A stretch of 64,000 bases of DNA from Alphaproteobacteria bacterium (GTDB lineage Bacteria > Pseudomonadota > Alphaproteobacteria > Micavibrionales > Micavibrionaceae). The stretch is taken from assembly GCA_024275825.1 (NCBI GenBank), contig JAJRYK010000001.1, positions 1 to 64,000 of the forward strand, written 5' to 3'. The notes under the pieces were generated by a model that searched no databases, was not told the origin of the DNA, and was given only the letters and a program-made list of their open reading frames with translations. A program made the position numbers and the translations under genes. This document shows, piece after piece, positions 33,944 through 50,033 of this stretch; position 1 is the first letter of the stretch; the number at the start of each line of letters is the position of its first letter.

Positions 33944-34477
33944 TTACGGCCTTGGAGAAAGGTCAACCTGTCCATCAATATAAAGACCAAAGCGACTATA
34001 TGTTTCAGGATCAACAAGAACATCCATAGATTTATTATTTAGATCAAAGCTATAAGAAAGCACTGCGCCATTATAATAAAATGTACCCTGAGCAATACCA
34101 TCACCATCAGGATCTGTAAATGTCGGCAAAGTGTTCAGCAATATAGCATCACTCACCCCCTCATACTGAACAGCTCCAGAAGCACCAAAAATATCCTGAA
34201 GGCTAGTGCCTTGCGGTAATTCACCAAGAAAAACTTTATTGTAACGCGAATCGCGCTCCAGATCATGGTGATAATTATCGTTATCATAGACTGCCGCCAC
34301 ATGCGTAGGCACACCATTTTCCACCACGATATAATGGCCAGCCGCATCAGCACGATCGTAAAATTCATCAACCAAATGCCCCGCTGCCACCGGCGGTAAA
34401 TTACTAACTACAAAGCCTACAAAACCAACCATGCCTGCGCCTGCAGCCCCTAAAATAACTTTATTTCTAATATCCAT
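33944..34477 (-). CDS. Membrane-anchored hypothetical protein (177 aa)
   Basis: Family not recognised. It has an N-terminal hydrophobic helix (about 8-25, ILGAAGAGMVGFVGFVVS) that serves as an uncleaved anchor or signal peptide, followed by a beta-rich extracytoplasmic domain with many Asp/Tyr/Asn and no cysteine. The segment DPDGDGIAQG is an EF-hand-like/thrombospondin-type Ca-binding loop candidate. It stands alone between dnaX and the SRP RNA gene, with 100-bp-scale gaps on both sides. Confidence 0.68.
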   Translation of the reverse strand: MDIRNKVILGAAGAGMVGFVGFVVSNLPPVAAGHLVDEFYDRADAAGHYIVVENGVPTHVAAVYDNDNYHHDLERDSRYNKVFLGELPQGTSLQDIFGASGAVQYEGVSDAILLNTLPTFTDPDGDGIAQGTFYYNGAVLSYSFDLNNKSMDVLVDPETYSRFGLYIDGQVDLSPRP

Positions 34478-34777: not shown

Positions 34778-37243
34778 CTAGCTCTTTTTCTTCGCACTTT
34801 TCTTCGCACTTTTCTTAGGAGCTTTCTTGCCTTTAGATTTCTCCTCGGGCAAAGCCAGTTCCGGCGCTAATTTACGGACCAATGGCTGCAAGCCCTTCTC
34901 GTATTTACGCCACTTCTCAACAGAGGTGGTGTAAACCGGCTTAGTCACCTGCGCCCGGCTTGCCGTCATAACAGCACGCTTGAGCTTATGTGGCTCAAGA
35001 CAGGCATCATTCCATTCAAGGCCGAGATAGTCGATCATTCTTCTCGCTTGCTCTTCCAGGTTGGTCACCGTGTCCTCATACTGAACCTCTAAAAACCCAC
35101 CAGGCAAGACCTCTCTCCAATGATCCATGGCTTTATCATGCTTCATATAGAACTCAGCGCAGTCCTCGAGATCATAAGACCAATAGTGCCCCATGAAGAA
35201 GTTTTGCTGATAACACGACAAACAGTTATCCATCGGATTACGGCGGCAATAAATGATCTTTGCGTTGGGCAGAATGGCCTTGATGTAACCAATGAGCATG
35301 TAATTCCCCGGCATTTTATCCGTGAAATACTTTGCCCGGTCCTCACCAATAAAGTCCTGCGCTTGAGCAATATACTCTTCTCCGGCAGCCTTTAAATCTT
35401 CCAGCGCTTCATGCGGATAAGAGGCATTAACGCTGGTGATAAAGGTTAGCTCGCCACCAGGCGTCACGTCTGGATGTGACGAAATAATTTGCTCAGTCAA
35501 GGTCGTGCCGGAACGCGGCATACCCATGATGAATATCGGCTCATCTGTGTCCAGCCCATAGCCCTTAACGCCGTCGAAAAACTCCGGCGTGTATGTTTCT
35601 TTAATACTAGCCACGGCAGCGACCTGACGCTCCAGGCTGCGCTCACCAGAAATAATCTTTTTGCGCGCATCATTTCCTTTTTTCAGATATTCAAACCCCT
35701 TATCGTATTCGCCCAGGCTATGGTAAACATGTGCAAGAGACAGATAATAGGCACTTTCAACCTGAACACCGAATGTATCAATTCTATCTTCAAATTTCAG
35801 CATCGCCTTAAAGATTGGGTCCTCTTCTGATTCATATTCCTTAAAGCCGGCCAAAATATTATAGGCTGCGGGAGAGTTTGCAGTGCTCTCAATCATAGTA
35901 TTGGCGACCTCTTCGGCCTCCTCAAACCGCCCCAATGATGCCAGTATTTCTGCCTTCTGCGTCAGCGCACCCGCCCATTTCGGCGAAAGCTTCAAGGCCT
36001 GATCAATAAACTGAAGAGCCTCATCCATTTTCTGCTGATGGAACAAGATCGTACCTTTTCGTACAAGCCCCTTCGGCATTTGCGGGCTCAGCTCAAGCGC
36101 ACGATCAATCGCACTATGCGCTTCTGGGAAGTGCCCCATATATTGACGAATCTCTGAAAGCTTAATGTAAGCGCGCGCCGATTCAGGCTGACGGTGAAGC
36201 GCCTCTTTAATAGCGGCTTCCGCATCATCATACTGATCAAGCGCCTCTAAAACCTCAGCAAGGTTAATATAAGGATATGCATCATCATCCTTTGAATATT
36301 TAACAGCGCTTTGCGCCGCTGTATGAGCTTGCGCCAACTCACCGAGATTCGACTGAGCTGTAGATAGCGCAGAATACGCCTCTGAAACACCTGACTTAAA
36401 TGCAATCGCATAGCGCGCAGCAACAGCAGCCTCCCTATAAAGGCCTTCATCATTTAAAGCCACCGCAAGGTTTGTATGTGCCTCTGGGTAATCAGGCTGT
36501 ATATCTGTTGCCTGACGATACACCTTGATCGCCTCTTCAACATTACCGCCATCTCTAATAATATTCGCATAGTTATTCAAAACAGTTGGATCTTCAGGAT
36601 CAATATCATAGGCCTTTTTACACTTTTCGTGCGCCTCGGGCATGCGGGACATCTCGCGTAGCGCATTACCCAGATTGCTGAGACACATGGCGTTCTCAGA
36701 CTCAACCTCCAAAGCTTTTTTCCAAGCATCAATGGCTTCTTCAAATCTAAACTGCTTACTCAGCGCGATTCCTAGGCTATTCAAGCCATTTATATTATCG
36801 GGCTCTATTTTCAACAAGTCTTGCGCAGTCTGCTCTGCTTCAGCAAAGCGCTTTAACTGCCACAGCGCATATGCCTTATTAGAAATTGCATCCGTATATT
36901 CAGGGGCAAGCGCAATAGCTCTGTCCAAATATTCTATAGCTTCCTCAAACGCGCCAAATTGTAAAAGCACACCTGCGTAGTTATTGACACACCTGATATC
37001 TTCCGGCTCAGCCTCTAAGGCTTCCGAAAAATATTTTTGCGATTCTTCAAAATATCCGCATTGAAATAAAAGAGCGCCCAAGAACTGGGTAGTTGGAAAA
37101 TGCTGCGGCACCGTGCGCAATATATCCCGATAAGTACGCTCGGCAAGAACCAGGTTGCCTGTTTGATGGTGACCCTTTGCTAGAGCCAAAGCATCATCTA
37201 AAGTAACCTCATGATTTTGCTGCACTAAATTATTTGTGGACAT
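34778..37243 (-). CDS. TPR-repeat sulfotransferase
   Basis: An 821-residue protein with about 13 tetratricopeptide repeats (residues 15-480; for example YFEESQKYFSEALEAEPED, FEEAIDAWKKALEVESEN) followed by a Sulfotransfer_1-type domain (about 545-790). The PAPS 5'-phosphosulfate loop is IMGMPRSGTTLTEQII and the 3'-phosphate site is in KIIYCRRNPMDNCLSCY. The C-terminal 20 residues are an almost pure Lys/Ala/Ser tail (GKKAPKKSAKKSAKKKS). No signal peptide is present, so it should be cytoplasmic. Proteins with this architecture are common in marine and environmental proteobacteria, and their substrates (glycan, lipid or protein) are generally unknown. It lies just upstream of the fibre cluster on the opposite strand. 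Confidence 0.92.
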   Translation of the reverse strand: MSTNNLVQQNHEVTLDDALALAKGHHQTGNLVLAERTYRDILRTVPQHFPTTQFLGALLFQCGYFEESQKYFSEALEAEPEDIRCVNNYAGVLLQFGAFEEAIEYLDRAIALAPEYTDAISNKAYALWQLKRFAEAEQTAQDLLKIEPDNINGLNSLGIALSKQFRFEEAIDAWKKALEVESENAMCLSNLGNALREMSRMPEAHEKCKKAYDIDPEDPTVLNNYANIIRDGGNVEEAIKVYRQATDIQPDYPEAHTNLAVALNDEGLYREAAVAARYAIAFKSGVSEAYSALSTAQSNLGELAQAHTAAQSAVKYSKDDDAYPYINLAEVLEALDQYDDAEAAIKEALHRQPESARAYIKLSEIRQYMGHFPEAHSAIDRALELSPQMPKGLVRKGTILFHQQKMDEALQFIDQALKLSPKWAGALTQKAEILASLGRFEEAEEVANTMIESTANSPAAYNILAGFKEYESEEDPIFKAMLKFEDRIDTFGVQVESAYYLSLAHVYHSLGEYDKGFEYLKKGNDARKKIISGERSLERQVAAVASIKETYTPEFFDGVKGYGLDTDEPIFIMGMPRSGTTLTEQIISSHPDVTPGGELTFITSVNASYPHEALEDLKAAGEEYIAQAQDFIGEDRAKYFTDKMPGNYMLIGYIKAILPNAKIIYCRRNPMDNCLSCYQQNFFMGHYWSYDLEDCAEFYMKHDKAMDHWREVLPGGFLEVQYEDTVTNLEEQARRMIDYLGLEWNDACLEPHKLKRAVMTASRAQVTKPVYTTSVEKWRKYEKGLQPLVRKLAPELALPEEKSKGKKAPKKSAKKSAKKKS

Positions 37244-37547: not shown

Positions 37548-38210
37548 ATGTCTCAAGTTAAAAACAATTCTTCAAAAAAAGCAGGTTATATTGCCGGAGG
37601 TGCACTTGTTGCCCTTAGCAGTTTTGTTCCGCAGCCCCCGATGCTAAACGGTGTTGTGCTTCAAAATCAGGCTCATGCTGCGAAAGTGACCGTACCGGTT
37701 TCTGGTAAGGTCATATCAGGTATCACACTAACTGCCGGCGCCGGGTTCGACTTTGGTAGCTTCATTGCCACAGCAACAGCCGGTCAATACGGGGTCAAGC
37801 AAGTTGATGGCGGCGTCACAGGCGCAGCCAACGGTAAGGTTGTCGTCGCCGCAACGCGCGGGAAGTTCAAGTTTGTTGGTGCCATTCTGGCCCCCATTGA
37901 TATAAAGGCAAGCAAGATTGGTACAGACCTTGCCTTAAATTCCATCGGTGGTTTTAAACAAGGTGATGTGACACTAAAAACCCTGAGCTTCGGAAAGGTT
38001 CTCAATACCGGCGTTGATCTGGATTTAAAAACACTTGGCGCGGCGACGTTTGCCGTCAATAACGGTTTTGTAATCAACAAGGGATATAAAGCGGTAGATG
38101 CTGCCGGTAAAGTTGTCAGCTTTGGCGGCATCCTCAGATGGACTGGCGCACGGCCAATTGGCGCGATCACCAACACAGGTGGTAACATCGTTCTCACCAT
38201 CACCTATTAA
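37548..38210 (+). CDS. Secreted DUF4402-like protein, paralog A (candidate fibre subunit)
   Basis: The ATG at 37548 has a strong AGGAAGGAG site. A long signal region (KKAGYIAGGALVALSSFVPQ...NQAHA, cleavage near residue 43) leads to a beta-rich domain with VPVSGKVISGITLTAGAGFDFGSFIATA, GKFKFVGAILAPIDIKAS, SFGGILRW and a final GGNIVLTITY. The pattern (an FGxF strand near the start, a late GG-L strand, and a terminal alternating strand ending in Tyr) is that of DUF4402/Mat-type pilin-like domains, which use donor-strand exchange. There are no cysteines. Paralog B starts 26 bp downstream. Confidence 0.75.
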   Translation: MSQVKNNSSKKAGYIAGGALVALSSFVPQPPMLNGVVLQNQAHAAKVTVPVSGKVISGITLTAGAGFDFGSFIATATAGQYGVKQVDGGVTGAANGKVVVAATRGKFKFVGAILAPIDIKASKIGTDLALNSIGGFKQGDVTLKTLSFGKVLNTGVDLDLKTLGAATFAVNNGFVINKGYKAVDAAGKVVSFGGILRWTGARPIGAITNTGGNIVLTITY

Positions 38211-38235
38211 GAGACCCAAAGAAAGGAGCTCGAAC

Positions 38236-38865
38236 ATGTCTAAAAGTAAAAAAAGTTTATTATCGAAGAAGCAAGCCGCCGGAGTTTTGATGGTGAGTTT
38301 ATCTGGGTTTGTACCGCAGGCCTATATGCAAACAGTGGATGCAGCCGTGGCCAGCATCGCCCTCGCCGGAAATATCCCGAGTGGTATCACTTTAGGTAAC
38401 CCCAAGAGCATAAAATTTGGAGATCTGGTCGCCACAGCGAAAATTGGTGCATATGGCCTAAAAACCGACAATGGCACGACCAACGTTGTCGGTGCCGTGA
38501 AAGCGGCGGCCGGTGTTGCCGGTAAGTTTGATTACAAAGCGTTAGTTGCCGCAAATATTGACATCACCATCAGCAAGTTGGGCCCACTTTCTTTGGCCGC
38601 AGTGGGTGGCGCAGGTCCGTTTGGAACGGTTAAACTTAATAAAATCAGGTTTGCCACCCAATTGGGCGGCGTCGGGCTTACACTAACAGCCGTTGGTACA
38701 AAAGCATCAACAGCAAACTACGCTGCGACAAAACAAACAGGCGTGGCAAATGCTGCGACATTTGGTGGAACATTATCATGGGATGCTGCTGGTAACCCTG
38801 TTCGTCCACCGGTTGGTGCACTGTCCGTAGCAAGTGGCGGTATTGTGATTACCATTAATTACTAG
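38236..38865 (+). CDS. Secreted DUF4402-like protein, paralog B (candidate fibre subunit)
   Basis: A paralog of the preceding gene: the same layout with a Lys-rich n-region (MSKSKKSLLSKK), hydrophobic core (GVLMVSLSGFVPQ), then IPSGITLGNPKSIKFGDLVATAKIGAYG, GKFDYKALVAANIDITIS, FGGTLSWD and the terminal SGGIVITINY. The ATG at 38236 has AAAGGAG 9 bases upstream. The two proteins keep the same strand order with low identity, so the duplication is old. Expected role: structural subunit of a surface fibre or coat, exported by Sec and handled by the chaperone at 40834. The gene ends at a strong terminator. Confidence 0.75.
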   Translation: MSKSKKSLLSKKQAAGVLMVSLSGFVPQAYMQTVDAAVASIALAGNIPSGITLGNPKSIKFGDLVATAKIGAYGLKTDNGTTNVVGAVKAAAGVAGKFDYKALVAANIDITISKLGPLSLAAVGGAGPFGTVKLNKIRFATQLGGVGLTLTAVGTKASTANYAATKQTGVANAATFGGTLSWDAAGNPVRPPVGALSVASGGIVITINY

Positions 38866-38888
38866 ACTACGACGACCCTCTAATTCAT

Positions 38889-38923
38889 AAAAAACCCCTG
38901 GATATAATATCCGGGGGTTTTTT
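38889..38923 (+). terminator. Strong terminator after the DUF4402-like pair
   Basis: A near-perfect palindrome: AAAAAACCCC and GGATAT pair with ATATCC and GGGGTTTTTT around a 2-base centre. The symmetric A/T flanks also let it stop the converging SET-domain gene. Confidence 0.9.
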
Positions 38924-38964
38924 ATGACAGTGAAGAAAATTTTACCTTAACGAAAATCACATGA

Positions 38965-40233
38965 TCAGGCTGCTGCTGCAGTATCATAACTTTTAATGTT
39001 TTCCTTATAAGCTGCGATCTTTTTAAGCTGTGCCTTCGCTAGAATCCTCATCCTTAAAAGAGAATCAGACGCGCCCTTTTCTTCTACAAGCTCATCAACA
39101 TGTTTGAGCAAAGATTCATAATCTTCTGCATTAACATTCAATATTTTTTCCTCTGCCGCCAGCGCCCACTCCTGCACATCAAAAGTGATATCTTGATCAA
39201 AATTCGAATACATATGTTCTATCGTATATTTAATCACCCGCCGCATTCCAAGTGGGGCCATGCTCTCCTTGAGCGGAATAATCACAAAAGATAGCTGCAT
39301 ATCCTGCTCTTCAGGCTGCTTGCCCTCGTCTTCTGTAAATTTAAATTGTGGTGTATAATAGATCAAATCCGACAACTCCGCCGGCAAAGGCTCATGTATC
39401 TTCGGATCGTGCCCTTTATTATCAATCAGAATTTTTCGCCCATCGGGCACCTCTAACTCCAGCTTAATAGAACGTATAATCGGCGCACTCTCATCAACAA
39501 AGTTATAGCGCAACAAGCTGTCACACGCATCCAGAACTCCATAAAAAGCAAAGCATTCATTATTACCCTCGATGGGCTGACTGCTGGCAATGGTCAGATC
39601 CCCCTCCCGCACACCAGAAACAACCGAAAAATTCGCCCCGTCCCAATGGTGATTAAGAAAATCAATTATTGGCATAATTGTGCTTACATTATCCTCACGT
39701 ATAGGGTCATTATAACCCAAAGGTCGCGTCTGAATGAATGTATCAATCAAAAATTGCTTAAAGAGCACCTCATCCATGCCTTCTTGAAGGCCCTTGTACC
39801 ATTCCTGATACTTAGGATTAGTCATTCTGTTTTTACTGAATTTTTCCATCAGCGTCGGGTAATCTCTTAAGGAATATAAAAAACAAATGTCTTTATGCTC
39901 TGCAACCTTCGCTGTGAGATTATAAATCTCAAACATTTGTTCAATGATTGTTCTTTGAACCTGCGTCACTGTTGTGTTAAGAAAATAATCAACCACAAAG
40001 TTATCACCGACCAAGGCAATGGCATACTGATCACTCGGCATCAGCGCTGCGCGCGGTATTCTGATCATTTCCTTACCGCGTGACATCGCCTCTTTAGTGC
40101 TTAATGTTATATTTTTATTAACGACACTAATTTGAAGCTGTGAATGAAAGCCGGATCCGGCCTGACGTAACGTATCCAGGAGATTATTAAATGCTTTTTC
40201 TATCTGCGGACTGTCTGATGTAACGGTAACCAT
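38965..40233 (-). CDS. SET-domain (Rubisco-LSMT-like) protein
   Basis: A 422-residue protein that I read as a remote member of the SETD3/6/Rubisco large-subunit methyltransferase group of SET proteins. Residues 44-64 (LSTKEAMSRGKEMIRIPRAA) match the first SET strand pattern of a Gly turn then LxxIP. Residues 188-200 (PIIDFLNHHWDGA) match the DxxNH block; 228-246 (FAFYG...DSLLRYNFV) match the block with the catalytic Tyr, xxYG...LLxxYGF. The C-terminal 150 residues are helical, like the LSMT substrate-binding domain. If active, it would methylate protein lysines. It is on the opposite strand, inside the fibre cluster. I have no second line of evidence and the usual GRG loop is not clear. Confidence 0.6.
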   Translation of the reverse strand: MVTVTSDSPQIEKAFNNLLDTLRQAGSGFHSQLQISVVNKNITLSTKEAMSRGKEMIRIPRAALMPSDQYAIALVGDNFVVDYFLNTTVTQVQRTIIEQMFEIYNLTAKVAEHKDICFLYSLRDYPTLMEKFSKNRMTNPKYQEWYKGLQEGMDEVLFKQFLIDTFIQTRPLGYNDPIREDNVSTIMPIIDFLNHHWDGANFSVVSGVREGDLTIASSQPIEGNNECFAFYGVLDACDSLLRYNFVDESAPIIRSIKLELEVPDGRKILIDNKGHDPKIHEPLPAELSDLIYYTPQFKFTEDEGKQPEEQDMQLSFVIIPLKESMAPLGMRRVIKYTIEHMYSNFDQDITFDVQEWALAAEEKILNVNAEDYESLLKHVDELVEEKGASDSLLRMRILAKAQLKKIAAYKENIKSYDTAAAA

Positions 40234-40301
40234 GATTTATCTTGTACCCATGTTTTTAATATTTTAATATGCTCCCATATATACATCTAAAAGGCGAAGA
40301 A

Positions 40302-40805
40302 ATGAACACAAAAAACGTAACATTGATTGCCGTATCAGCGCTCGCATTATCAACAAGCTTTGCTGGGCCTGTATTTTCTCAGGTCATTATTAGCTGCCCT
40401 CAGAGACTAACCATTGGCAATATTATATTGTGCTCAACTGGCAGATTGGTCATCAACCCGGATGGCACAACAACCTCCATGACCGGATGCGCCCATGTGA
40501 CCAATACCCCAACCCCTGCTCAGTGTGTTGTTCAGACAGGTGGCATGCCAGTTGCAAGTAATGTTCGTGTAGACTTCGCGGCCTCTTCTGTTACGATCAC
40601 GAAAGCTGGAGATACCATTTTAATTGATCGACTGCGGATGACCTACACTGGCGCAACAACACCAGCCACGGCTATTACACTCACGCCGGCGCAAGTTTCT
40701 GGTGGTGTGACAGTTAACATAGGAGGGCGACTTAATATGTCCGGCACTGCACAAACGCTTGGCGTATACAGTTCTAACATCACCGTACAAGCAAACACGA
40801 TATAA
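40302..40805 (+). CDS. DUF4402 domain protein (small fibre subunit)
   Basis: A 167-residue secreted protein. The ATG at 40302 follows GGCGAAGAA; upstream frame to 40269 lacks a site. The signal peptide is LIAVSALALSTSFAGPVFSQ. The domain matches DUF4402 more closely than the two paralogs: VINPDGTTTSMTGC early, DTILIDRLRMTY in the middle and the characteristic GGVTVNIGGRLNMSG...GVYSSNITVQ at the end. It has four cysteines (ISCPQ, ILCST, TGCAH, AQCVV), so it likely has disulfides. It immediately precedes the chaperone gene and is the likeliest direct chaperone client. Confidence 0.85.
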   Translation: MNTKNVTLIAVSALALSTSFAGPVFSQVIISCPQRLTIGNIILCSTGRLVINPDGTTTSMTGCAHVTNTPTPAQCVVQTGGMPVASNVRVDFAASSVTITKAGDTILIDRLRMTYTGATTPATAITLTPAQVSGGVTVNIGGRLNMSGTAQTLGVYSSNITVQANTI

Positions 40806-40833
40806 ATACATTTTAAACTGAAAGGCGCGAAAC

Positions 40834-41673
40834 ATGAAAACACCACCATTATCGAGATATAGAAAGGCAAGGTTTTTAACCTTTTTTATAGCAGCGGCCT
40901 TTTTCACTTTAGTGCCCCATCTAGCACATAGCTCATTTATTTCGCCCATGCGCGTAGTCATTGATGCCAATAAGACAACTGCTGAAGTTGTCATCTTAAA
41001 TAGAGAAGATGTCCCCATGGTATATACCTTCGGCTGGCAGCGCCGGGCTATGGATATCAACGGGAAAATTGTTGAACTTGGTGAAGACGGTGAAATGGAA
41101 GGATACAGACCAGCAGACCCTTACCTTATATATTCCCCAAGGAAAGCTATCGTTGGACCAGGGGAAACGCAGCGTATTCGTATCCTGGCCAGGCGCACAA
41201 AAGACATGGTGGACGGGGAGTATCGCTCTCATATCCTGATCAGCCCCAAAACAACCAAAAAACCCAAACAAACAGTGGTTAAACATACTGGTGGGTCAAT
41301 TCCTGTTTCAGCGCGCGTTGGCATACCGGTCTTTTTAAGAAAAGGAAAAACAACCGCCTCTGTTGAGCCAAAGCGTATTGAAATCGGCAAAAGAGACGGA
41401 CTCGATGTTTTGTTTTTTGACTTAACAAACAACAGCACGCGCACGCTTTATCCAAAGACAGACCTATATTGCACCAGACCAGGGGAAGAAAAGCCCGAGC
41501 TCATCGAGCTAAGCGCACTACGCCTGTTCTATGAAGCTGTGAATATAAGCTATACGCTCCCCATTCCTGAAGGTGCAAACTTGGATAACTGTACATCCAT
41601 CACACTAAAGCTTGTTGATCCAAAGGACTTCGAATATTCAAAAACACCACTATTGGAAACGGTTATACGGTAG
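40834..41673 (+). CDS. Periplasmic pilus-assembly chaperone (PapD-like)
   Basis: A periplasmic chaperone of the chaperone-usher class. It has a hydrophobic signal segment (FLTFFIAAAFFTLVPHLAHS), then an Ig-like PapD domain: FISPMRVVIDANKTTAEVVILNREDVPMVYTF (two pieces), YSPRKAIVGPGETQRIRILAR and DGEYRSHILIS. The F/G-strand donor segment is near GGSIPVSARVGIPVFLR. The family's invariant Arg-Lys cleft has plausible candidates in the first strand and in FLRKGKT. Together with the following usher it defines the locus. It follows the DUF4402 gene after 28 bp. Confidence 0.85.
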   Translation: MKTPPLSRYRKARFLTFFIAAAFFTLVPHLAHSSFISPMRVVIDANKTTAEVVILNREDVPMVYTFGWQRRAMDINGKIVELGEDGEMEGYRPADPYLIYSPRKAIVGPGETQRIRILARRTKDMVDGEYRSHILISPKTTKKPKQTVVKHTGGSIPVSARVGIPVFLRKGKTTASVEPKRIEIGKRDGLDVLFFDLTNNSTRTLYPKTDLYCTRPGEEKPELIELSALRLFYEAVNISYTLPIPEGANLDNCTSITLKLVDPKDFEYSKTPLLETVIR

Positions 41674-41676
41674 TAA

Positions 41677-41695
41677 CAAAGGCATATAGCCTTTG
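41677..41695 (+). repeat. Short perfect hairpin after the chaperone gene
   Basis: CAAAGGC / GCCTTTG with a 5-base loop begins 3 bp after the chaperone stop. There is no T-run, so it is probably an mRNA-stabilising or attenuating hairpin, not a terminator. Confidence 0.4.
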
Positions 41696-41748
41696 AATGG
41701 GGCTTTGACTTCATTTTTAGTCACCCAATAAAAATATACACATATTAA

Positions 41749-41788
41749 AAGAACGGGCTGTGGATAACGCCCGCTCTTTTTTTTTGGT
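41749..41788 (+). terminator. Rho-independent terminator between the chaperone and usher genes
   Basis: GAACGGGC pairs with GCCCGCTC (one mismatch), followed by nine or so T residues. It separates the chaperone unit from the usher, so the usher may be transcribed from its own promoter within 41789-41858 or by readthrough. Confidence 0.75.
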
Positions 41789-41858
41789 GTTACCGCCACG
41801 AATCGCGTTGTGATAGAATCACTGTGGGCTATTCTATAACTACTCTCTGCTCTATTTC

Positions 41859-44800
41859 ATGAGCGATCATCATTATTGGTACGTAACTGGGCGCACGCTG
41901 CGTCTTGCATTAGTCATTGCGCTATTTGCAAGCATCAGCGTGATAAACCCGGCTTCGGCTGTTGAAGCATCTAACGAAACAGCACAAGAGACCGTCATTT
42001 CTAATGACCAGGTCACAGTACTGAGTAATGACCAATTGTTATCTACCAGTGTCGGTACCAATACCCTTTCTGATGCTCAAACCGGTGAATTAACACTGTC
42101 ATCGAACGAGGATCCAAAAGCTCAGACCGAGGATAGTGCGGTCGAGAATGTTATTTATGACCCGGGTGCGATTATAAACGCAGACGGTACTTTTTCGTTG
42201 CCGAAGACCGGAGAGCTTCTCGAAGTTGTTCTCGCCGTAAAACGCGACTCAAACTTTATTATACCTGCTATTTTTGGATATGAGCGAGATGGCGAGTACT
42301 TCATTCCTGTCAAAGGGTTCTCTGAAGAGCTCCAATTCCCCGTTACCCTAGATAAAGAAGCACAGCGCGTTGAGGGCCGTTATTTCGGGGGAAATAGCGT
42401 TTATTACGTGGACCTGATCGCCGGCACATATTCCACGTTCCAAGAAAGTATACAACTGCCAGAAGGCTCATATGTCTTTAGAAACGAAGGTGATGATCTG
42501 GATGATATTTACGTCTCTATAGACGTACTAAATGACATGTGGCCACTGGCCTTCGAATTAGAGCCCGACGAACAAGTCCTTAAAATTGGCACCGCGCGTC
42601 GATTACCTTTCGAGCTTGCAGCAGAGCGTGCGAAGCGACAGGAAGAACTAGAGCGTCGACGAGCAGACGCAGCAGAAGACCCCGACGAAAAATATATATA
42701 TGTTCCAAACGGCTTTAATTTTTTAGGGCCTCAAATTTTTACACTGAGCCAATCAGCACAATGGCGCAATGATACCAAGGCACTAAACAACAGCAGCTTT
42801 GTTTCAGGCCGGGGAGACATTCTTGGCGGCAGCGCCGATTATGCCGCCAGTTTCATCAAAAGAGGCAGTGAAGATCTTGGTCTTAACAATGCACGATTCA
42901 CATGGCGCCGCACGGATTTTGGAAACAATAAACTTCTGCCATTTGGATTAAAAGTCCTGGAGCTTGGCGACACACAAATCAGAAGCTCACAGCTCGTTTC
43001 AAACAGTATCGGCGGAAAAGGGGTATTCATCTCCTCCGATACAAAAAATATATCGCAGAACTTTGATGATGTCACAATTAGAGGGACCGCCGAACCCGGC
43101 TGGGAAGTTGAAATATATAGAGAAGGCGTATTAATTGATTTCGGCACCGTTAATGAGCTAGGAGAATACAGATTTGATAATATCCCTCTTAATTTCGGCG
43201 GCAACCGCATAAAGCTCATTTTGTATGGCCCACAAGGTCAAATAGAAGAGCGCACAGAAGAATACAATATTGGCCGCAGCCTTTTAAAACCGGGAGAGAT
43301 AAGCTACCAAGCGGGTATTGTTAAAACAGGCAACACCTTACTCAACGTTAATGATAGAAACGATGAAAATGCGAATTCTTCAAAATCTCTAAGAGTTTCT
43401 CGCGGCCTTAATCAATTCATTACCACCTACGCAAGCCTTACAGACCTTCCTGTTTTCCGCATCGGCCAACAACAATATGCCACTATCGGCGCAGATTTCA
43501 TTGCCTTTAACGGACGCGGCAAGGCCGAACTCTATAAGCAGCTGGACGGCGGTCACGCTTTAGATTTCAGATACGGGAACACATTCCTGGGCGTCAATAC
43601 ACTCCTGCGCGGTTCACTATATAGCAATTTTGAAAGTCAGCAGGCTGGTATTGGCAATAATAAACGTACAAATCAAGGTACCATTACATTTGGAAAATCC
43701 TTTACAACCAAACTGGGGGCGCTCAGCCTTGGCCTATCTACAGACTTTACCAATTTTGAAACACAAGACAGCACAGCCACAGTTTCAAATACGCAAGGCC
43801 TGACAACAAATGATTTTGGTAGCTTCAGCCACTCTTTAACCTCCCAATACACAGACGGCACACTCGACACCAGGACTGGGCAATTCTCCTTTAGTAAGGC
43901 CCTTGGCCGTAAATATAGTTTTTCCAACTTTCTATCCTACACCCTTGAACCCAAGGAACGCTTCACCACAACGGGCTTTAACTTCCGCTATGATGATAAC
44001 GACAAGCTAACAGCCAATTTTGGACTCAATCAATCTCTGGAAAAATCAAGCACTCGCAACTTTGATTTAGGCGCGTCATATAAATTTAAAAAGTTCCGGG
44101 GCAATTTCGGACTCGATTGGGACAACAAGAACGGCTTTGACGTTCGCGTTGGCGCGTCAACAACGCTGGGGCCAGAAGGTGAAAACCTAGCCTACGCCAT
44201 CACCAACGAATTCAAACAACTCAGTACAGGCCTGACGGTCAAGCTGTATCACGATATAAATGGTGACGGTGTCTTTAATGAAGGTGACCAGCCCGTACCC
44301 TACACTCGCCTTCAGCTAAGTAATGGCAGCCTCACCAGTCTCACGGATGAGAATGGCGAGGCCACATTTAGCAGAGAAGGCGGCGAAGGATTCGTCAACA
44401 TTACGCTAGATCGCGAAACACTCCACGATAACTCCTTCCTTGTTCCTGCACGCAAAAGCGGATTTTCAACCATTCTGCGCCGCGGCACAAAGCCATTTAT
44501 CAATTTCCCCTTAGTCATGTCAGGATCCATCGACGGCACACTCATCAGTGCAAATGACGAAGGGCTTGAAGGCCATGTTGTCCAACTTGTTGACGAATAT
44601 GGCGAGCTGATTGCAGAGACCAGCACAATTTCCGATGGTTTCTATGTTTTTGAATTAGTGAGGACCGGACGCTACATCGTACAGCTCCACCCCTCACACC
44701 GTATTTTCGTTCCCCCCCAAACCGTAACAGTTTCATCTGAGGATCTATTTGCCTATGGCGTAGATCTGCGGGTCCTTGAGCAGGTACCTACAGACGAAGC

Positions 44801-45254
44801 GGCTGCAGTAGAAGTAGAAAGAGATGGTAGAGTAGCCCATACTTACCATGATGCTTCTGTGGCCGGGAGGGACGAAAAACCTGCTCAATCCCAATCTGAT
44901 AGCGGGGTCCAATCCGTTATCAGAGCTGTTCGTGTCGGGGAGTATCTAGGCAAGACTCGTCTTGTTCTGGATCTCTCCGGCCCGCTCAGTTACCAAGTAT
45001 CGCGAAGCAAAAGCGGTTATGCGATTTACATCGATTTACCGAGTGCCTCCACCAGCGTAAAATCCGCTGACTGGACATCCGGCCCTCATGCGCTTTTCTC
45101 TTCTATCGAAATACACCAGCCACCCCGCGGCGGAACTGGAACGCAGATCAAACTCAATGCCCTTGCGCCGCTCGATGTGCATGAAAATGCACTCTTGCCC
45201 GCGAATAACGGCCTGGCTGATCGCATATATATCGACTTCACTAAAGCTAAATAA
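41859..45254 (+). CDS. Usher-like outer-membrane protein with C-terminal AMIN domain
   Basis: An 1131-residue secreted protein. After a signal segment ending near INPASA, residues 110-250 form an unrecognised, possibly N-terminal usher-specific domain (LPKTGELLEVVLAVKRDSNF). The beta-barrel and plug follow: LPFGLKVLELGDTQIRSSQL and GGKGVFISSDTKN correspond to the usher GDTxxR/S and RGVxxSSD blocks, then DVTIRGTAEPGWEVEIYREG and PGEISYQAGI. Residues about 790-1000 form two CarboxypepD/SdrD-like beta sandwiches, one with a Ca-loop (DINGDGVFNEGD). Residues 1020-1131 (RVGEYLGKTRLVLDLSGPL...IYIDLP...RIYIDF) look like an AMIN domain. Length is well over the usual 800-850 residues. Start ATG lacks a clear ribosome site. 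Confidence 0.8.
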   Translation: MSDHHYWYVTGRTLRLALVIALFASISVINPASAVEASNETAQETVISNDQVTVLSNDQLLSTSVGTNTLSDAQTGELTLSSNEDPKAQTEDSAVENVIYDPGAIINADGTFSLPKTGELLEVVLAVKRDSNFIIPAIFGYERDGEYFIPVKGFSEELQFPVTLDKEAQRVEGRYFGGNSVYYVDLIAGTYSTFQESIQLPEGSYVFRNEGDDLDDIYVSIDVLNDMWPLAFELEPDEQVLKIGTARRLPFELAAERAKRQEELERRRADAAEDPDEKYIYVPNGFNFLGPQIFTLSQSAQWRNDTKALNNSSFVSGRGDILGGSADYAASFIKRGSEDLGLNNARFTWRRTDFGNNKLLPFGLKVLELGDTQIRSSQLVSNSIGGKGVFISSDTKNISQNFDDVTIRGTAEPGWEVEIYREGVLIDFGTVNELGEYRFDNIPLNFGGNRIKLILYGPQGQIEERTEEYNIGRSLLKPGEISYQAGIVKTGNTLLNVNDRNDENANSSKSLRVSRGLNQFITTYASLTDLPVFRIGQQQYATIGADFIAFNGRGKAELYKQLDGGHALDFRYGNTFLGVNTLLRGSLYSNFESQQAGIGNNKRTNQGTITFGKSFTTKLGALSLGLSTDFTNFETQDSTATVSNTQGLTTNDFGSFSHSLTSQYTDGTLDTRTGQFSFSKALGRKYSFSNFLSYTLEPKERFTTTGFNFRYDDNDKLTANFGLNQSLEKSSTRNFDLGASYKFKKFRGNFGLDWDNKNGFDVRVGASTTLGPEGENLAYAITNEFKQLSTGLTVKLYHDINGDGVFNEGDQPVPYTRLQLSNGSLTSLTDENGEATFSREGGEGFVNITLDRETLHDNSFLVPARKSGFSTILRRGTKPFINFPLVMSGSIDGTLISANDEGLEGHVVQLVDEYGELIAETSTISDGFYVFELVRTGRYIVQLHPSHRIFVPPQTVTVSSEDLFAYGVDLRVLEQVPTDEAAAVEVERDGRVAHTYHDASVAGRDEKPAQSQSDSGVQSVIRAVRVGEYLGKTRLVLDLSGPLSYQVSRSKSGYAIYIDLPSASTSVKSADWTSGPHALFSSIEIHQPPRGGTGTQIKLNALAPLDVHENALLPANNGLADRIYIDFTKAK

Positions 45255-45458
45255 GACCGCTTGTTATTACACACGCGGATAAGGTGCTCACACTCATTCA
45301 TTGCGTGAACCCTTTATCTATCGCTGCGTGGAGATAGCATAACTATCTATCCCCATCGTTTACTCCTCTTGTGGCGGCCCAATATTGACGCGCTGCGCCA
45401 ATCGCCCATAGGCTAAGCAATAGATTCTCATTTATTTATTCGCTTTAGGTATTCGCCA
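45255..45458. other. Intergenic region with hairpin-rich sequence
   Basis: The 204-bp gap has a dyad GATAG CATAA CTATC (about 45332-45348) with CGCTGCGTGG before it and TTACTCCTC after it. It recalls the core-and-flank layout of the repeats at 17471 and 31938, but the match is too loose to call a copy. No open frame of note is present. Confidence 0.35.
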
Positions 45459-46409
45459 TTGTTAAACCAATTTTCGGCATTTAGGAAGACCCTAAAATCT
45501 CTTTTTTGCTCCGCGGTGCTGCTTGCGAGTGCCAGCGTGGTGTTGAGCGGGTGCGGATGGGAGTGGCCAAGCTATGAGGGGTTTCAGCGCGACCCCCTAT
45601 CCTTCCTTGGCGATAATGGCCCAGATGAAAATATCCCGCCGCCGCCCAGCGTCATCCCTAAAGATGCCCCGGACCAGAATGATCCGCATTCAACGCTGAT
45701 CCCGGCGAGCACAATGGGCCTTAATCTCAACACCTATTTCGCGCAAGACATCGATGACCCCAACACACGTATTCAGCGCCTGGAAAATGTCTTGGTGGCC
45801 GTTCACCATGATATGCAACAGATGTCTGGCGGAAAATCTCTGCCGGTTTACAAAACCCCAGAGCCCGTTGAAACGCAGACCAAACCTGTTGCGCCCGTAA
45901 GCACGGCAACGCCAGCGCCAGCACAGGAAGGCCGCACCGTCCTCGCCAGCGGCGGGCCGGAAAACCTGGTGGCTGGCGATACTGCCGCGCCAACAAAATC
46001 AGCCTCCACGCCCGTTTATGAGAAAAAGACGCCGGCCAAAGCCACGGCGCCAAAATTCACACCCAACACCTCCGGGCCAACAACCATCACTGGCCTGCGC
46101 ATTGGCGTACATAAAGATAAGGTGCGAATCGTCATGGATGTGACGCGCAAAACGCTCTATTCTGCCGATCTGGATAATGGTGAGAATCTGCTGATCGTTG
46201 AGCTGCCCGATGCAGGATGGAGCGCCGCGGCGCAAAAAAGCTTTGGCAAAACACCACTGCTAAAATCCTACCGCATTGATCCGTTCAATGACGGAAAGGG
46301 TCATATTTTAGTACTCGAACTGAAGGGCTCATCCTCCATCATCAAACAAATGCAGATCCCAGCCCTTACTGGTGGCGGGCAGAGAATTTTCATTGATTTG
46401 GCCCGGTAA
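45459..46409 (+). CDS. AMIN-domain lipoprotein
   Basis: A 316-residue lipoprotein. The start is a TTG at 45459, because no ATG lies in frame before the signal peptide (SLFCSAVLLASASVVLSGC, lipobox LSGC). A Pro/Ala/Thr-rich linker (about 45-205) includes a helical part (NTRIQRLENVLVAVHHDMQQM). Residues 210-316 form an AMIN domain: ITGLRIGVHKDKVRIVMDVT, NLLIVELPDAGW, HILVLELKG and GQRIFIDLAR. By family knowledge, AMIN domains bind peptidoglycan or mediate localisation (AmiC, PilQ). It lies next to the usher, which carries its own AMIN domain, so the two may act together; a Fim-like accessory lipoprotein is one possibility. Confidence 0.8.
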   Translation: MLNQFSAFRKTLKSLFCSAVLLASASVVLSGCGWEWPSYEGFQRDPLSFLGDNGPDENIPPPPSVIPKDAPDQNDPHSTLIPASTMGLNLNTYFAQDIDDPNTRIQRLENVLVAVHHDMQQMSGGKSLPVYKTPEPVETQTKPVAPVSTATPAPAQEGRTVLASGGPENLVAGDTAAPTKSASTPVYEKKTPAKATAPKFTPNTSGPTTITGLRIGVHKDKVRIVMDVTRKTLYSADLDNGENLLIVELPDAGWSAAAQKSFGKTPLLKSYRIDPFNDGKGHILVLELKGSSSIIKQMQIPALTGGGQRIFIDLAR

Positions 46410-46571: not shown

Positions 46572-47687
46572 GTGGCGATGAAAATGCTCCGTACATACGC
46601 TCTACGTCTTGCTCAGGCTGATATGGTCTTTTGGCTCATGCCCGCACTCATCGCACTGCTTCTTGCCGGAACAATTGCGCAGAAATGGATGGGGCTCTAC
46701 GCCGCGCACCAGATGTTTTTTAGCTCTTTTATCTTTTGGGTGGGGCCGCTCCCGCTGCCCGGGGGCTATCTTCTGCTCGGCATTCTCAGCATCAACCTGA
46801 CCCTTAAATTCCTGCTAGGCAGTGAATGGCGCTGGAGCAAAGCCGGGATTAATTTGACGCATCTGGGCGCATTAATCCTGCTCGTTGGCGGCTTACTCAC
46901 GGCCCTCACCGCGCATGAGCGCTATATGGTGATCACGGAAGGCCAGGAAACGCCCTATATGTACGACTATATAGAACGTGAGCTGAGCATTTTTGTCGAT
47001 GAGCATCTGAAATACAAAATACCCTTTGATAAGCTCCCGCGCACGCTCTCAACATTGCCCTTCACCATCGAGATCATGAGCACATGCAAAAATTGCGAAA
47101 TCACAAAACGCGCGGAAACGCAGCCTGATGAATTTGGCGACACTGCGCTGCATGGCATGGCGCAATTCATGGCGCTCGATCCAAAACCGCGCGAGAAAGA
47201 TCCAGAGGCTGATCTCTCTGGGCTCATCTTTAAAGTCGACGGACTAGATGCCACGCAAGATGGCATTTACGTCGCCATCGAAGGCATGCCCGCGCCAATC
47301 ATGCTCACCCATAATGAACAGATTTATCACATCATGCTGGGCAAAGCGCAGAGCATGCTGCCTTTCTCGCTCACCCTGCTCGATTTTGTTAAAGAGAGCT
47401 ATCCCGGCACAGATAAAGCCAAGGCCTTTAGCTCTGACATCATCATCAAGGACGGTGATCTTGAATGGCCCGCAAAGATCGAGATGAACAAGCCACTGCG
47501 CTATAAGGGCTATACCTTCTTCCAATCCTCGTTCGAGCGCGCAGGCGGGGTGGAGCGCAGCATCTTTTCCGTGGTCGAAAATAAAGGCCGCCTGCTGCCC
47601 TATATCGGCACGATCATCCTCACCGCCGGGTTATTGCTGCATATCTTTATGATTTTGCGCCGCCCGAAGAAACGGAAAGCCTCATGA
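46572..47687 (+). CDS. resB: Cytochrome c biogenesis protein ResB (System II)
   Basis: An inner-membrane partner of CcsA that keeps apocytochrome/haem ligation machinery together. It has transmembrane helices near residues 18-38, 60-75 and 90-110 (FWLMPALIALLLAGTIAQK; LGALILLVGGLLTALTA) and a last one at the C-terminus (YIGTIILTAGLLLHIFMIL), with a large periplasmic domain between. The start codon is a GTG at 46572; ATGs at 46578 and 46584 are alternatives. It overlaps the next gene by 4 bp (ATGA). At 371 residues it is of the shorter ResB form. Confidence 0.82.
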   Translation: MAMKMLRTYALRLAQADMVFWLMPALIALLLAGTIAQKWMGLYAAHQMFFSSFIFWVGPLPLPGGYLLLGILSINLTLKFLLGSEWRWSKAGINLTHLGALILLVGGLLTALTAHERYMVITEGQETPYMYDYIERELSIFVDEHLKYKIPFDKLPRTLSTLPFTIEIMSTCKNCEITKRAETQPDEFGDTALHGMAQFMALDPKPREKDPEADLSGLIFKVDGLDATQDGIYVAIEGMPAPIMLTHNEQIYHIMLGKAQSMLPFSLTLLDFVKESYPGTDKAKAFSSDIIIKDGDLEWPAKIEMNKPLRYKGYTFFQSSFERAGGVERSIFSVVENKGRLLPYIGTIILTAGLLLHIFMILRRPKKRKAS

Positions 47688-49483
47688 TTCGGCTGTTTTT
47701 CACGCTCTTACTTTTCCTTTGTGCACTGCCGCAATATGCACGCGCAGCAGATTTTGATTATAGCGCTTTCGCACAAATCCCTGTGCTACATGAAGGGCGC
47801 ATTAAACCGCTAGACAGCTTTGCACGCCTTCATCTCAAGCGCTTTTCCGGGCAAAGCCATGTCAGAGATCTGTCGCCCAGCGCATGGCTTGCACAAACGC
47901 TGTTTGACCCGGCCCGCGCCACGGAAACGAAGCTGTTTTTTGTGCAGAATAAAGATCTCAAAATGCAGCTAGGCCTTCCCCTTGATCAGAAACTATTCTC
48001 TGTCATTGAGCTACAAGGCGCGCTCGCCCCAACCCTTTCACAAATTCCGGCGCTGCTCGCAAAAGAGGACGGCGCGCTCACTCCGGCGCAAAATGAAGTG
48101 CTGCAACTTCACGACGATGTACTGCAATATTTAAGCCTGATGCGCAGCTTTTCGATGATCTTGCCGCTCAATATTGACCTGCCGGAAAAATATAGCGATA
48201 GCGCACCAAACTATCTGGCGCTCTATCCGGTGCAAGACGACATTTTGCGCGATGTGAAACGCATCATCAAAGTCAAAGGCGATAATATTGAGCGCTATAG
48301 CAAGGATGAGCAAAAGCTCGCCGCACTGTCTTATCAACTCACCATCCTTCAAAATGCTGCGCAAAATAATCAATCGCTCGCTATCTTTCCGCAAGGTGGC
48401 CCCGGAGGGTGGCGAGCACCATGGCAGGTTTTTGCGCATGAAGACTTAACGTTGTGGCAAAATTTAGCCGCAGCCTATCGCAGCAATAATGCGCAGCACT
48501 GGCGCGATATCAGCGCACAAATTACGCAGCATGCGCAGGATAATACGAGCGCAACTACGCCGCAAAAATTAAAACTCGAAATCCTGTATAACCGTTTAAA
48601 ACCCTATCATGTAGCAATGGCGCTCTACGCGCTTTCAATGCTCCTGATCTTCGCGCCCGCCCGCTTTATCTGGGCACAAGCAAGCTTTAGCTTGGCCGCT
48701 CTCGCGCACAGCGCCGCGATTACTGCGCGCATGATGATTTTAGAGCGCCCGCCCGTTGGCACGCTTTATGAATCTCTACTGTTTGTCGGCTTGATCACTG
48801 CATTAATCGCCCTATTTATCGCTCTGAAGCAGCAAAGCCGTGCCGCGCTTTTTGCGGGCGGCATGGCGACACTTCTCTTACTCAGCATCGCGCCATATTT
48901 GCTGCAAGATGGCGACAGCCTGGAAATGTTGGTCGCCGTCCTGAACACCAATTTCTGGCTGACCATCCATGTACTATGCATCACCGCGGGTTATGCCCTT
49001 TGTATTTTATCCGCCTGCCTTGCGCATGTTGCGCTCTTCTTGCGCCTGCGCGGCGGCGCGAAAGATCTTTTGCGCAAACTGCAGCAAAACATCTATCCCA
49101 TTTCCATGTTCGCCTTGCTCTTCACGGCCGTAGGCACGATTTTGGGCGGCATCTGGGCGGATCAATCATGGGGACGATTTTGGGGCTGGGACCCTAAGGA
49201 GAACGGCGCCTTGCTGATCGTCCTGTGGTTAATTTGGTTGCAACATGGACGTATCAGTGGCCATATGAAACCGTTGCACTTCCTGATCGGCAATGCGTAT
49301 TTAAATGTCATTGTTGCGCTTGCATGGTTTGGTGTAAATTTGCTGGGTGTGGGCCTGCATTCCTATGGCTTTATCAACGGCATTGCATGGAGCTTAGGTC
49401 TGTTCGTTGCGGGCGAAACCCTTCTGCTCTCAGGTCTTTGGATCATGATTCGTATACGGGAGAAAAAACCGCATGAAGCTTAA
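47684..49483 (+). CDS. ccsA: Cytochrome c biogenesis protein CcsA/CcsB-type haem channel
   Basis: The haem-handling subunit of cytochrome c maturation System II. A signal segment (LLLFLCALPQYARA) is followed by a periplasmic region with the block IPVLHEGRIKPLDSFAR, typical of fused or long CcsBA proteins of deltaproteobacteria, epsilonproteobacteria and Bacteroidetes. The C-terminal half has about eight transmembrane helices and the WWD-like haem site: WGRFWGWDPKENGALLIVLW. Conserved His residues lie in the TM loops (HVLCITAGY; GVGLHSYGFI). Length is 599 residues. It overlaps the TlpA-like gene by 11 bp. Confidence 0.88.
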   Translation: MIRLFFTLLLFLCALPQYARAADFDYSAFAQIPVLHEGRIKPLDSFARLHLKRFSGQSHVRDLSPSAWLAQTLFDPARATETKLFFVQNKDLKMQLGLPLDQKLFSVIELQGALAPTLSQIPALLAKEDGALTPAQNEVLQLHDDVLQYLSLMRSFSMILPLNIDLPEKYSDSAPNYLALYPVQDDILRDVKRIIKVKGDNIERYSKDEQKLAALSYQLTILQNAAQNNQSLAIFPQGGPGGWRAPWQVFAHEDLTLWQNLAAAYRSNNAQHWRDISAQITQHAQDNTSATTPQKLKLEILYNRLKPYHVAMALYALSMLLIFAPARFIWAQASFSLAALAHSAAITARMMILERPPVGTLYESLLFVGLITALIALFIALKQQSRAALFAGGMATLLLLSIAPYLLQDGDSLEMLVAVLNTNFWLTIHVLCITAGYALCILSACLAHVALFLRLRGGAKDLLRKLQQNIYPISMFALLFTAVGTILGGIWADQSWGRFWGWDPKENGALLIVLWLIWLQHGRISGHMKPLHFLIGNAYLNVIVALAWFGVNLLGVGLHSYGFINGIAWSLGLFVAGETLLLSGLWIMIRIREKKPHEA

Positions 49484-50033
49484 TATTATGATCGCCATTG
49501 CGATCGGTGTGCTGACCTATGGCCTAACCCTTTATTTCAACCATAATGACCGGCCCAATATGGTTGTGCAGCCAGAGGATAGCGCGCTCATCAAGCCCGT
49601 CCTCGGCAAAATAGCGCCCGATTTTTCATTTACAGACACCAAAGGCAGAGCCCGTGCTTTACGTGATTTTGGAGGTAAGATTGTCATCCTGAATTTCTGG
49701 GCCTCCTGGTGCGCACCATGCATCAAAGAATTCCCGGCGCTAATTGAGCTTGCGAGCACCAATAAGGACGTTGTGCTCATCGCGCTATCTTCAGATTTTG
49801 AATCCAGCGCGATGCACAAATTTATCGAAAAAATGAAGAAAAATCACCCGGCGATCGCGCGCAGCAATATCTACATCGCGCTGGATGAAGACAATCGTAT
49901 TACCGGGCCGCTTTATGAAACATTTAAACTGCCCGAAACCCTGATTATTGATCGCTCACAAATGCTTGCTCATAAGCTGATTGGTGCAAACTGGACAGTT
50001 CTCGGCGTCCAAAACATTCTCTCTGACCTGTGA
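49473..50033 (+). CDS. TlpA/ResA-like thiol-disulfide oxidoreductase
   Basis: A membrane-anchored thioredoxin-fold protein. The N-terminal helix (IMIAIAIGVLTYGLTLYF) faces the periplasm, followed by APDFSFTDTKGRARALRDFGGK and the active site LNFWASWCAPCIKEFPAL. The cis-Pro is in KLPETLIID. As the third gene of a System II set it would keep apocytochrome haem-binding cysteines reduced, like ResA/CcmG. Overlap with ccsA indicates translational coupling. Confidence 0.92.
   Translation: MKLNIMIAIAIGVLTYGLTLYFNHNDRPNMVVQPEDSALIKPVLGKIAPDFSFTDTKGRARALRDFGGKIVILNFWASWCAPCIKEFPALIELASTNKDVVLIALSSDFESSAMHKFIEKMKKNHPAIARSNIYIALDEDNRITGPLYETFKLPETLIIDRSQMLAHKLIGANWTVLGVQNILSDL

Follow-up and report, generated by a model that had tools for sequence, protein, structure and literature searches.

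A predicted chaperone-usher fiber locus of the DUF4402 class in Micavibrionaceae, with AMIN domains and linked SET and sulfotransferase genes

A stretch of 64,000 nucleotides (contig JAJRYK010000001.1, hereafter the window) from a Micavibrionaceae genome of 1.92 Mb, a family that includes Micavibrio, was analyzed and found to harbor a locus which by predicted fold and gene content belongs to the chaperone-usher pathway. That the locus produces a chaperone-usher fiber is highly likely. With somewhat less assurance, we favor the reading that it encodes a pilus or coat of a distinct DUF4402 class, in which the usher would be tethered to the cell wall and enzymes would modify proteins of the locus. 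An earlier reading of the letters without database searches (sequence-only reading) had proposed such a fiber from seven genes, all of which were recovered (Table 1), and the usher fold, the chaperone family and the conserved linkage support the proposal. Its gene list was correct as far as it went: a TPR-sulfotransferase gene beside the locus had been missed, and this gene is linked more tightly to the usher clade than the SET gene is.

Table 1. Positions of the genes and domains of the fiber locus in the window and the basis on which each was assigned.
Feature	Position	Strand	Basis
TPR repeats and sulfotransferase domain (about residues 563-795)	34778..37243	-	Pfam TPR; Sulfotransfer_3 7.6e-44
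sub1, secreted DUF4402-like subunit, paralog of sub2	37548..38210	+	family profile match
sub2, secreted DUF4402-like subunit	38236..38865	+	family profile match; Lys133 at 38632-38634
SET-domain methyltransferase (putative), SETD6/SETD3/LSMT type, helical C-terminal domain	38965..40233	-	fold and motif
Four-Cys DUF4402 subunit	40302..40805	+	Pfam DUF4402 2.4e-13; open frame from 40269
PapD-like periplasmic chaperone	40834..41673	+	PapD_N 0.04 alone; relatives match PapD_N
Outer-membrane usher with C-terminal AMIN domain	41859..45254	+	1131 aa; predicted fold
Usher barrel, 6 + 18 strands, residues 289-771	42723..44171	+	model; FimD/PapC matches
Ig-like plug between barrel strands 6 and 7, residues 404-471	43068..43271	+	model; weak Caf1A match
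AMIN domain of usher, residues 1019-1129	44913..45245	+	Pfam 0.0012; AmiC fold match; family profile 6e-15
Lipoprotein (LSGC lipobox) with C-terminal AMIN domain	45459..46409	+	Pfam 0.015 (weak)

The structure of the 1131 aa protein, previously described as usher-like and over-long, was modeled with 38 sequences as input (pLDDT 79.9, the barrel mostly near or above 90). In the model, a folded domain (residues 121-243), a possible counterpart of the chaperone-binding N-terminal domain of ushers, precedes the barrel, whose first six strands (289-392) and remaining 18 (481-771) are separated by an Ig-like domain (404-471). Behind the barrel, sandwich regions at 789-873 and 880-958 lead through a disordered linker to the last domain, at 1019-1129. 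FimD and PapC are known to be built on this plan, with a plug after the sixth of 24 strands, and the predicted protein has the 24-strand barrel with its plug in the same place. In Foldseek searches with the model, FimD or PapC made up the top 18 matches (best 4.3e-27). With VIA, Z 20.0 was obtained at 10.2 Å across 546 residues, pore-only structures gave Z 19.3-19.6 at 5-6 Å, and one FimD chain aligned from residue 118 onwards (Z 17.6 over the whole; 13.7 Å). The plug region (401-471) matched the middle domain of Caf1A (3fcg) weakly (0.11).

Profile searches alone would have led elsewhere, as the 1131 aa protein did not match Pfam Usher and yielded only SdrD_B, CarboxypepD_reg, Big_6 and a sub-threshold AMIN match. 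Together with the name 'carboxypeptidase regulatory-like' carried by plasmid homologs, the SdrD_B and CarboxypepD_reg matches would fit a carboxypeptidase-regulatory-like or SdrD-like adhesin, as in the public annotation of relatives, rather than an usher. We give this alternative next to no weight: both matches are confined to the C-terminal sandwich domain (about 890-948), whereas the remainder of the protein is predicted to form the usher barrel with plug, a PapD-like chaperone gene lies close to the usher in most loci, and two relatives do match Pfam Usher (1.5e-8 and 3.2e-5). On its predicted fold the protein is an usher, and the earlier proposal, which an HMM assignment to another family was to count against, stands on that fold despite the missing Pfam Usher match.

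The two secreted paralogs sub1 and sub2 had already been regarded as DUF4402-like, and neither matched Pfam individually. Sixteen of 20 members of the sub2 family matched Pfam DUF4402, and profile-to-profile alignment of the sub1/sub2 family with the four-Cys DUF4402 family gave an hhalign value of 98.9% (E 1.3e-17). The third DUF4402 protein, which was recognized by Pfam directly, belongs to a family with three invariant Cys and has itself four Cys in its mature part. By these profile comparisons, sub1, sub2 and the four-Cys protein all fall within the DUF4402 superfamily. Short alternating hydrophobic ends were seen by eye in the subunit sequences. The PapD-like chaperone of the sequence-only reading scored weakly when taken alone, and its family bears out the assignment, with PapD_N matched by 16 of 33 members.

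A tree of the usher sequences comprised a type-A clade of 27, to which the window belongs, and a type-B clade of 19. The last domain of the window usher lies just under the Pfam cut-off for AMIN and was aligned by VIA with the AMIN part of E. coli AmiC (Z 14.2, 2.3 Å, 110 residues), so that the AMIN domain suggested for this protein was confirmed by fold; the AMIN lipoprotein was present as well, with a weak Pfam match. Fusion of AMIN to the usher was found in 19/27 type-A and 0/19 type-B sequences. In the eight type-A ushers without fusion a separate AMIN protein was encoded nearby in five cases, and the same held for 12 of the 19 type-B loci. Among the usher matches listed from a sample of 289 alphaproteobacterial genomes, no AMIN-usher fusion was found outside Micavibrionaceae, the AMIN matches there being separate proteins. 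An alphaproteobacterial usher relative (L133 1-3498) carries a C-terminal SPOR domain instead (9e-14), and alignment shows SPOR-like ends in ushers L126, L135 and L137 that Pfam does not detect. The usher gene of Pseudoalteromonas is directly followed by one for a SPOR lipoprotein (2.8e-7), mirroring the AMIN lipoprotein of the window. Since relatives elsewhere have SPOR in place of AMIN, peptidoglycan contact looks recurrent, and because two peptidoglycan-binding domains of unrelated kinds occupy equivalent positions, wall anchoring is the most economical reading. From these domain assignments, we consider contact of the fiber system with peptidoglycan through AMIN to be likely. A literature search found no report joining 'usher' and 'AMIN domain'.

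Some further features of usher relatives were observed in passing. In L133 a second SPOR-like stretch lies ahead of the C-terminal one. Two alphaproteobacterial usher-like proteins from outside the order, of 1224 and 1282 aa (L131 415-4089 and L132 235-4080), have two N-terminal ShlB-type POTRA matches (1.5e-14, 2.5e-9) ahead of the barrel, a POTRA-usher fusion, and one of them also matches Pfam Usher (3.2e-5).

The gene on the opposite strand had been read as an LSMT-type SET protein. Pfam SET did not match the window protein, one of 11 family members reaching only E 0.068, and when a profile of these 11 members was compared with solved chains, SETD6 ranked first (0.14) and PAP7 third (0.72), both weakly. 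In Foldseek (7.7e-10), the full length of the structural model (pLDDT 86.8) was covered by matches to SETD3, PAP7, SETD6 and LSMT. With VIA, alignment to SETD6 gave Z 16.5 over 313 residues at 5.2 Å, and alignment to SETD3, PAP7 and LSMT gave Z of about 12.6-14.5. The active-site residues H195, Y231, D235 and Y243 were found in 32/32 relatives and N194 in 31/32; Y231 aligns with the Tyr of the SETD6 YGQM motif, which we take to be the catalytic Tyr 285. Fold and NH/Tyr motif thus confirm the earlier assignment despite the lack of a Pfam match, and the gene, as judged from its model, encodes a putative methyltransferase, a SET enzyme of the SETD6/SETD3/LSMT type that is complete in length and whose active-site residues are conserved. 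No signal peptide was seen by inspection. A weak match to the SdpC toxin (0.0026, far under the cut-off) was set aside in view of the SET fold and motif, and a phage origin was rejected, as no match was found among 50,697 phage records. Bacterial SET proteins are described as host-directed effectors in the excerpted part of a review of bacterial methyltransferases (PMC10117894).

The sulfotransferase domain of the TPR protein is closest to TPST1/2 among solved structures (about 1e-10), and its TPR part is closest to designed TPR proteins and O-GlcNAc transferase (OGT). As no signal peptide was seen, the protein is probably cytoplasmic. In two genomes (G001 and G036) the gene lies away from the usher and still adjoins a sub2 gene (L119, L120), and from this pairing sub2 emerges as a candidate substrate. 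That the enzyme acts on a protein of the fiber system is proposed tentatively. On its other side in the window, the sulfotransferase gene adjoins an open reading frame (33944-34477) whose 177 aa product has a hydrophobic N-terminal segment and fell into no Pfam family.

Linkage of these genes to ushers was surveyed with gene lists from an in-house ORF caller. Within 10 kb of type-A ushers, a sulfotransferase gene was found in 20/27 and a SET gene in 17/27 cases, whereas type-B ushers had neither (0/19). Counted by genome, the sulfotransferase was present in 17/18 with type-A ushers versus 1/40 others, and SET in 9/18, which is why SET is considered accessory. Fisher tests over 58 genomes gave 1.6e-12 for the sulfotransferase and 4.6e-6 for SET, p-values that ignore relatedness. 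In Micavibrionales, 23/142 genomes carry SET in 27 copies, of which 22 lie in these usher loci and five outside; for L050, counted among the 22, a sulfotransferase gene near a contig end was the sole criterion. The SET gene is placed divergently from a DUF4402 gene (14 loci), in tandem with a subunit gene, or between an AMIN gene and the usher, and in L116 it lies on the same strand as the sulfotransferase gene, 4 bp apart. Since each feature of the locus is conserved across related genomes, chance does not account for them, and linkage kept through changing gene order argues for a functional tie of SET to the fiber, of which we are reasonably confident. The sequence-only reading was to fall if the SET and AMIN genes were neighbors in this genome only; genes for SET, AMIN-ushers and DUF4402 proteins do occur together in related genomes, and the neighborhood recurs across many genera.

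In the sample of 289 genomes, SET was found in other Alphaproteobacteria only in three genomes of one genus. Tandem SET-family copies occur in another alphaproteobacterial lineage (L098 1558-4326 and genomes G144 and G377), and no usher was found near those of L098. In L110 (9386-12300) SET, DUF4402 and chaperone genes are grouped with no usher gene adjoining. The source genome of the window itself harbors a second chaperone-usher locus, of the type-B clade, on contig C42 (L003 5539-11800), with three DUF4402-like genes and with neither AMIN nor SET. Downstream of the fiber locus, the window carries cytochrome c maturation genes (ResB, CcsA, thioredoxin-like; 46572-50033), as do the surroundings of the usher loci in L062, L073 and L075; as ResB/CcsA/TlpA genes are found beside only a few usher loci, they were treated as bystanders.

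The earlier suggestion that fiber subunits are methylated gained no support from their lysine content. In raw numbers, DUF4402 proteins contain 3.1% lysine in SET genomes versus 1.5%, and after control for local lysine content this enrichment was not significant (p 0.097), for which reason it was abandoned as an indicator of the substrate. Some subunits in SET-bearing loci have zero or one mature lysine, and the four-Cys subunit was rejected as a universal SET substrate, since that of L106, in a SET locus, has no mature lysine. In the SET clade nearest the window, all genomes in which sub2 could be read (9/9) share its Lys133, and the sub2 of G010 has no other lysine after residue 36; this sharing was noticed post hoc and may reflect kinship only. 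Lysine methylation of bacterial surface proteins has been described for AtaA (by KmtA), rickettsial OmpB and Salmonella (PMC11784438). Direct action of the SET protein on a fiber subunit appears possible, the balance leaning slightly against it.

Two further explanations of the linkage were weighed. If SET and its neighbors stood together merely through inherited gene order, linkage would carry no functional meaning, and indeed every linked SET copy belongs to one family, and the SET and usher trees share overlapping groups. This is very improbable, given that SET presence changes at least five times on the usher tree, that the gene takes several differing positions and orientations, and that the 22 copies remain linked with sequence identity down to 26-30%. 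Alternatively, the fiber locus may be real while SET and sulfotransferase act elsewhere, tied to it by co-regulation and not as enzyme and substrate, with a cytoplasmic regulator or, for the sulfotransferase, a surface polysaccharide as target. The predominantly divergent arrangement of SET and DUF4402 genes would fit shared regulation, the subunits lack a lysine signal, and SET relatives in other lineages show no linkage to ushers; yet linkage survives changed gene orders, including the same-strand arrangement with the sulfotransferase gene, and the sulfotransferase domain resembles protein-tyrosine sulfotransferases. On this evidence we hold co-regulation alone to be rather unlikely and prefer a locus whose enzymes modify its own proteins.

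In such a system, DUF4402 subunits would cross the inner membrane by Sec, be held after export by the PapD-like chaperone and be polymerized by the usher through donor-strand exchange. The assembly platform would be tethered to peptidoglycan by two C-terminal AMIN domains, one on the usher and one on its partner lipoprotein, a tether that may fix its position or provide mechanical anchorage. Before export, the cytoplasmic SET enzyme might methylate lysine (or histidine, as SETD3 does) in at least one protein of the system, and the TPR-sulfotransferase might sulfate tyrosine in at least one. The recurrent SET and tyrosine-sulfotransferase-like genes suggest that the surface fibers are chemically decorated. 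Attachment to prey or surfaces would be the likeliest use in a family that includes epibiotic predators; a role in prey attachment, borrowed from the predation of Micavibrio, is put forward with caution. The fully specified version, prey-attachment pili of Micavibrionaceae with subunits methylated by a bacterial SETD6-like SET enzyme and tyrosine-sulfated by an OGT-like TPR-sulfotransferase prior to secretion and with a peptidoglycan-anchored usher, seems unlikely to hold in every part.

Ushers are textbook machines, yet relatives of the window class go by 'carboxypeptidase regulatory-like' or 'hypothetical' in public records. How epibiotic predators of this family adhere is poorly understood, and the locus is a candidate for an attachment organelle. 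Type IV pili and hemolysin-like proteins are discussed in the genome paper on ARL-13, and neither 'fimbria' nor 'sulfotransferase' occurs in it. In the literature searched, chaperone-usher systems whose ushers carry AMIN or SPOR, or whose partners include SET or sulfotransferase proteins, were not found, nor was any paper containing 'DUF4402'. New relative to the chaperone-usher systems found there are the wall-binding AMIN/SPOR domains on ushers and the linked, putatively protein-modifying enzymes. If the latter are true modifiers, SET-type and sulfation-type modification would be dedicated to a chaperone-usher fiber, and SET methylation and tyrosine sulfation of a pilus would be directly testable in bacteria.

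The window locus shares with the chaperone-usher pathway (FimD/PapC; Caf1A) the predicted 24-strand barrel with plug and C-terminal sandwich domains, and a PapD-like chaperone and small secreted subunits encoded in one locus. It differs from classical systems in that its subunits are DUF4402 proteins and not classical pilins, its usher lies under Pfam Usher detection and carries AMIN, and SET and sulfotransferase genes are part of the locus. Homologous ushers of Novosphingobium, Sphingopyxis, Polaromonas and Pseudoalteromonas, named 'carboxypeptidase regulatory-like' or 'hypothetical' and not usher, come after DUF4402 and chaperone-like genes, in the same subunit-chaperone-usher order as in the window; these operons are without AMIN, have SPOR genes in Pseudoalteromonas, and show no annotated SET or TPR-sulfotransferase gene in the stretches shown. 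In AmiC the AMIN domain is fused to an amidase, whereas the same fold is joined to an usher here. KmtA, the rickettsial OM lysine methyltransferases and FliB are not known to be SET enzymes, and they act on autotransporters and flagellin rather than on subunits of chaperone-usher fibers. As proposed here, they methylate surface proteins of the same cell (PMC11784438). The window SET protein has the full-length fold of SETD6/SETD3/LSMT/PAP7 including the C-terminal helical domain and the NH and Tyr motifs, but is bacterial, about 10-14% identical over aligned parts and tied to a fiber locus. The sulfotransferase domain matches TPST1/2 by sequence, and RaxST is reported to be a bacterial enzyme that sulfates tyrosine; in contrast to both, the window enzyme is a TPR fusion in which no signal peptide was seen and which is linked to a fiber locus.
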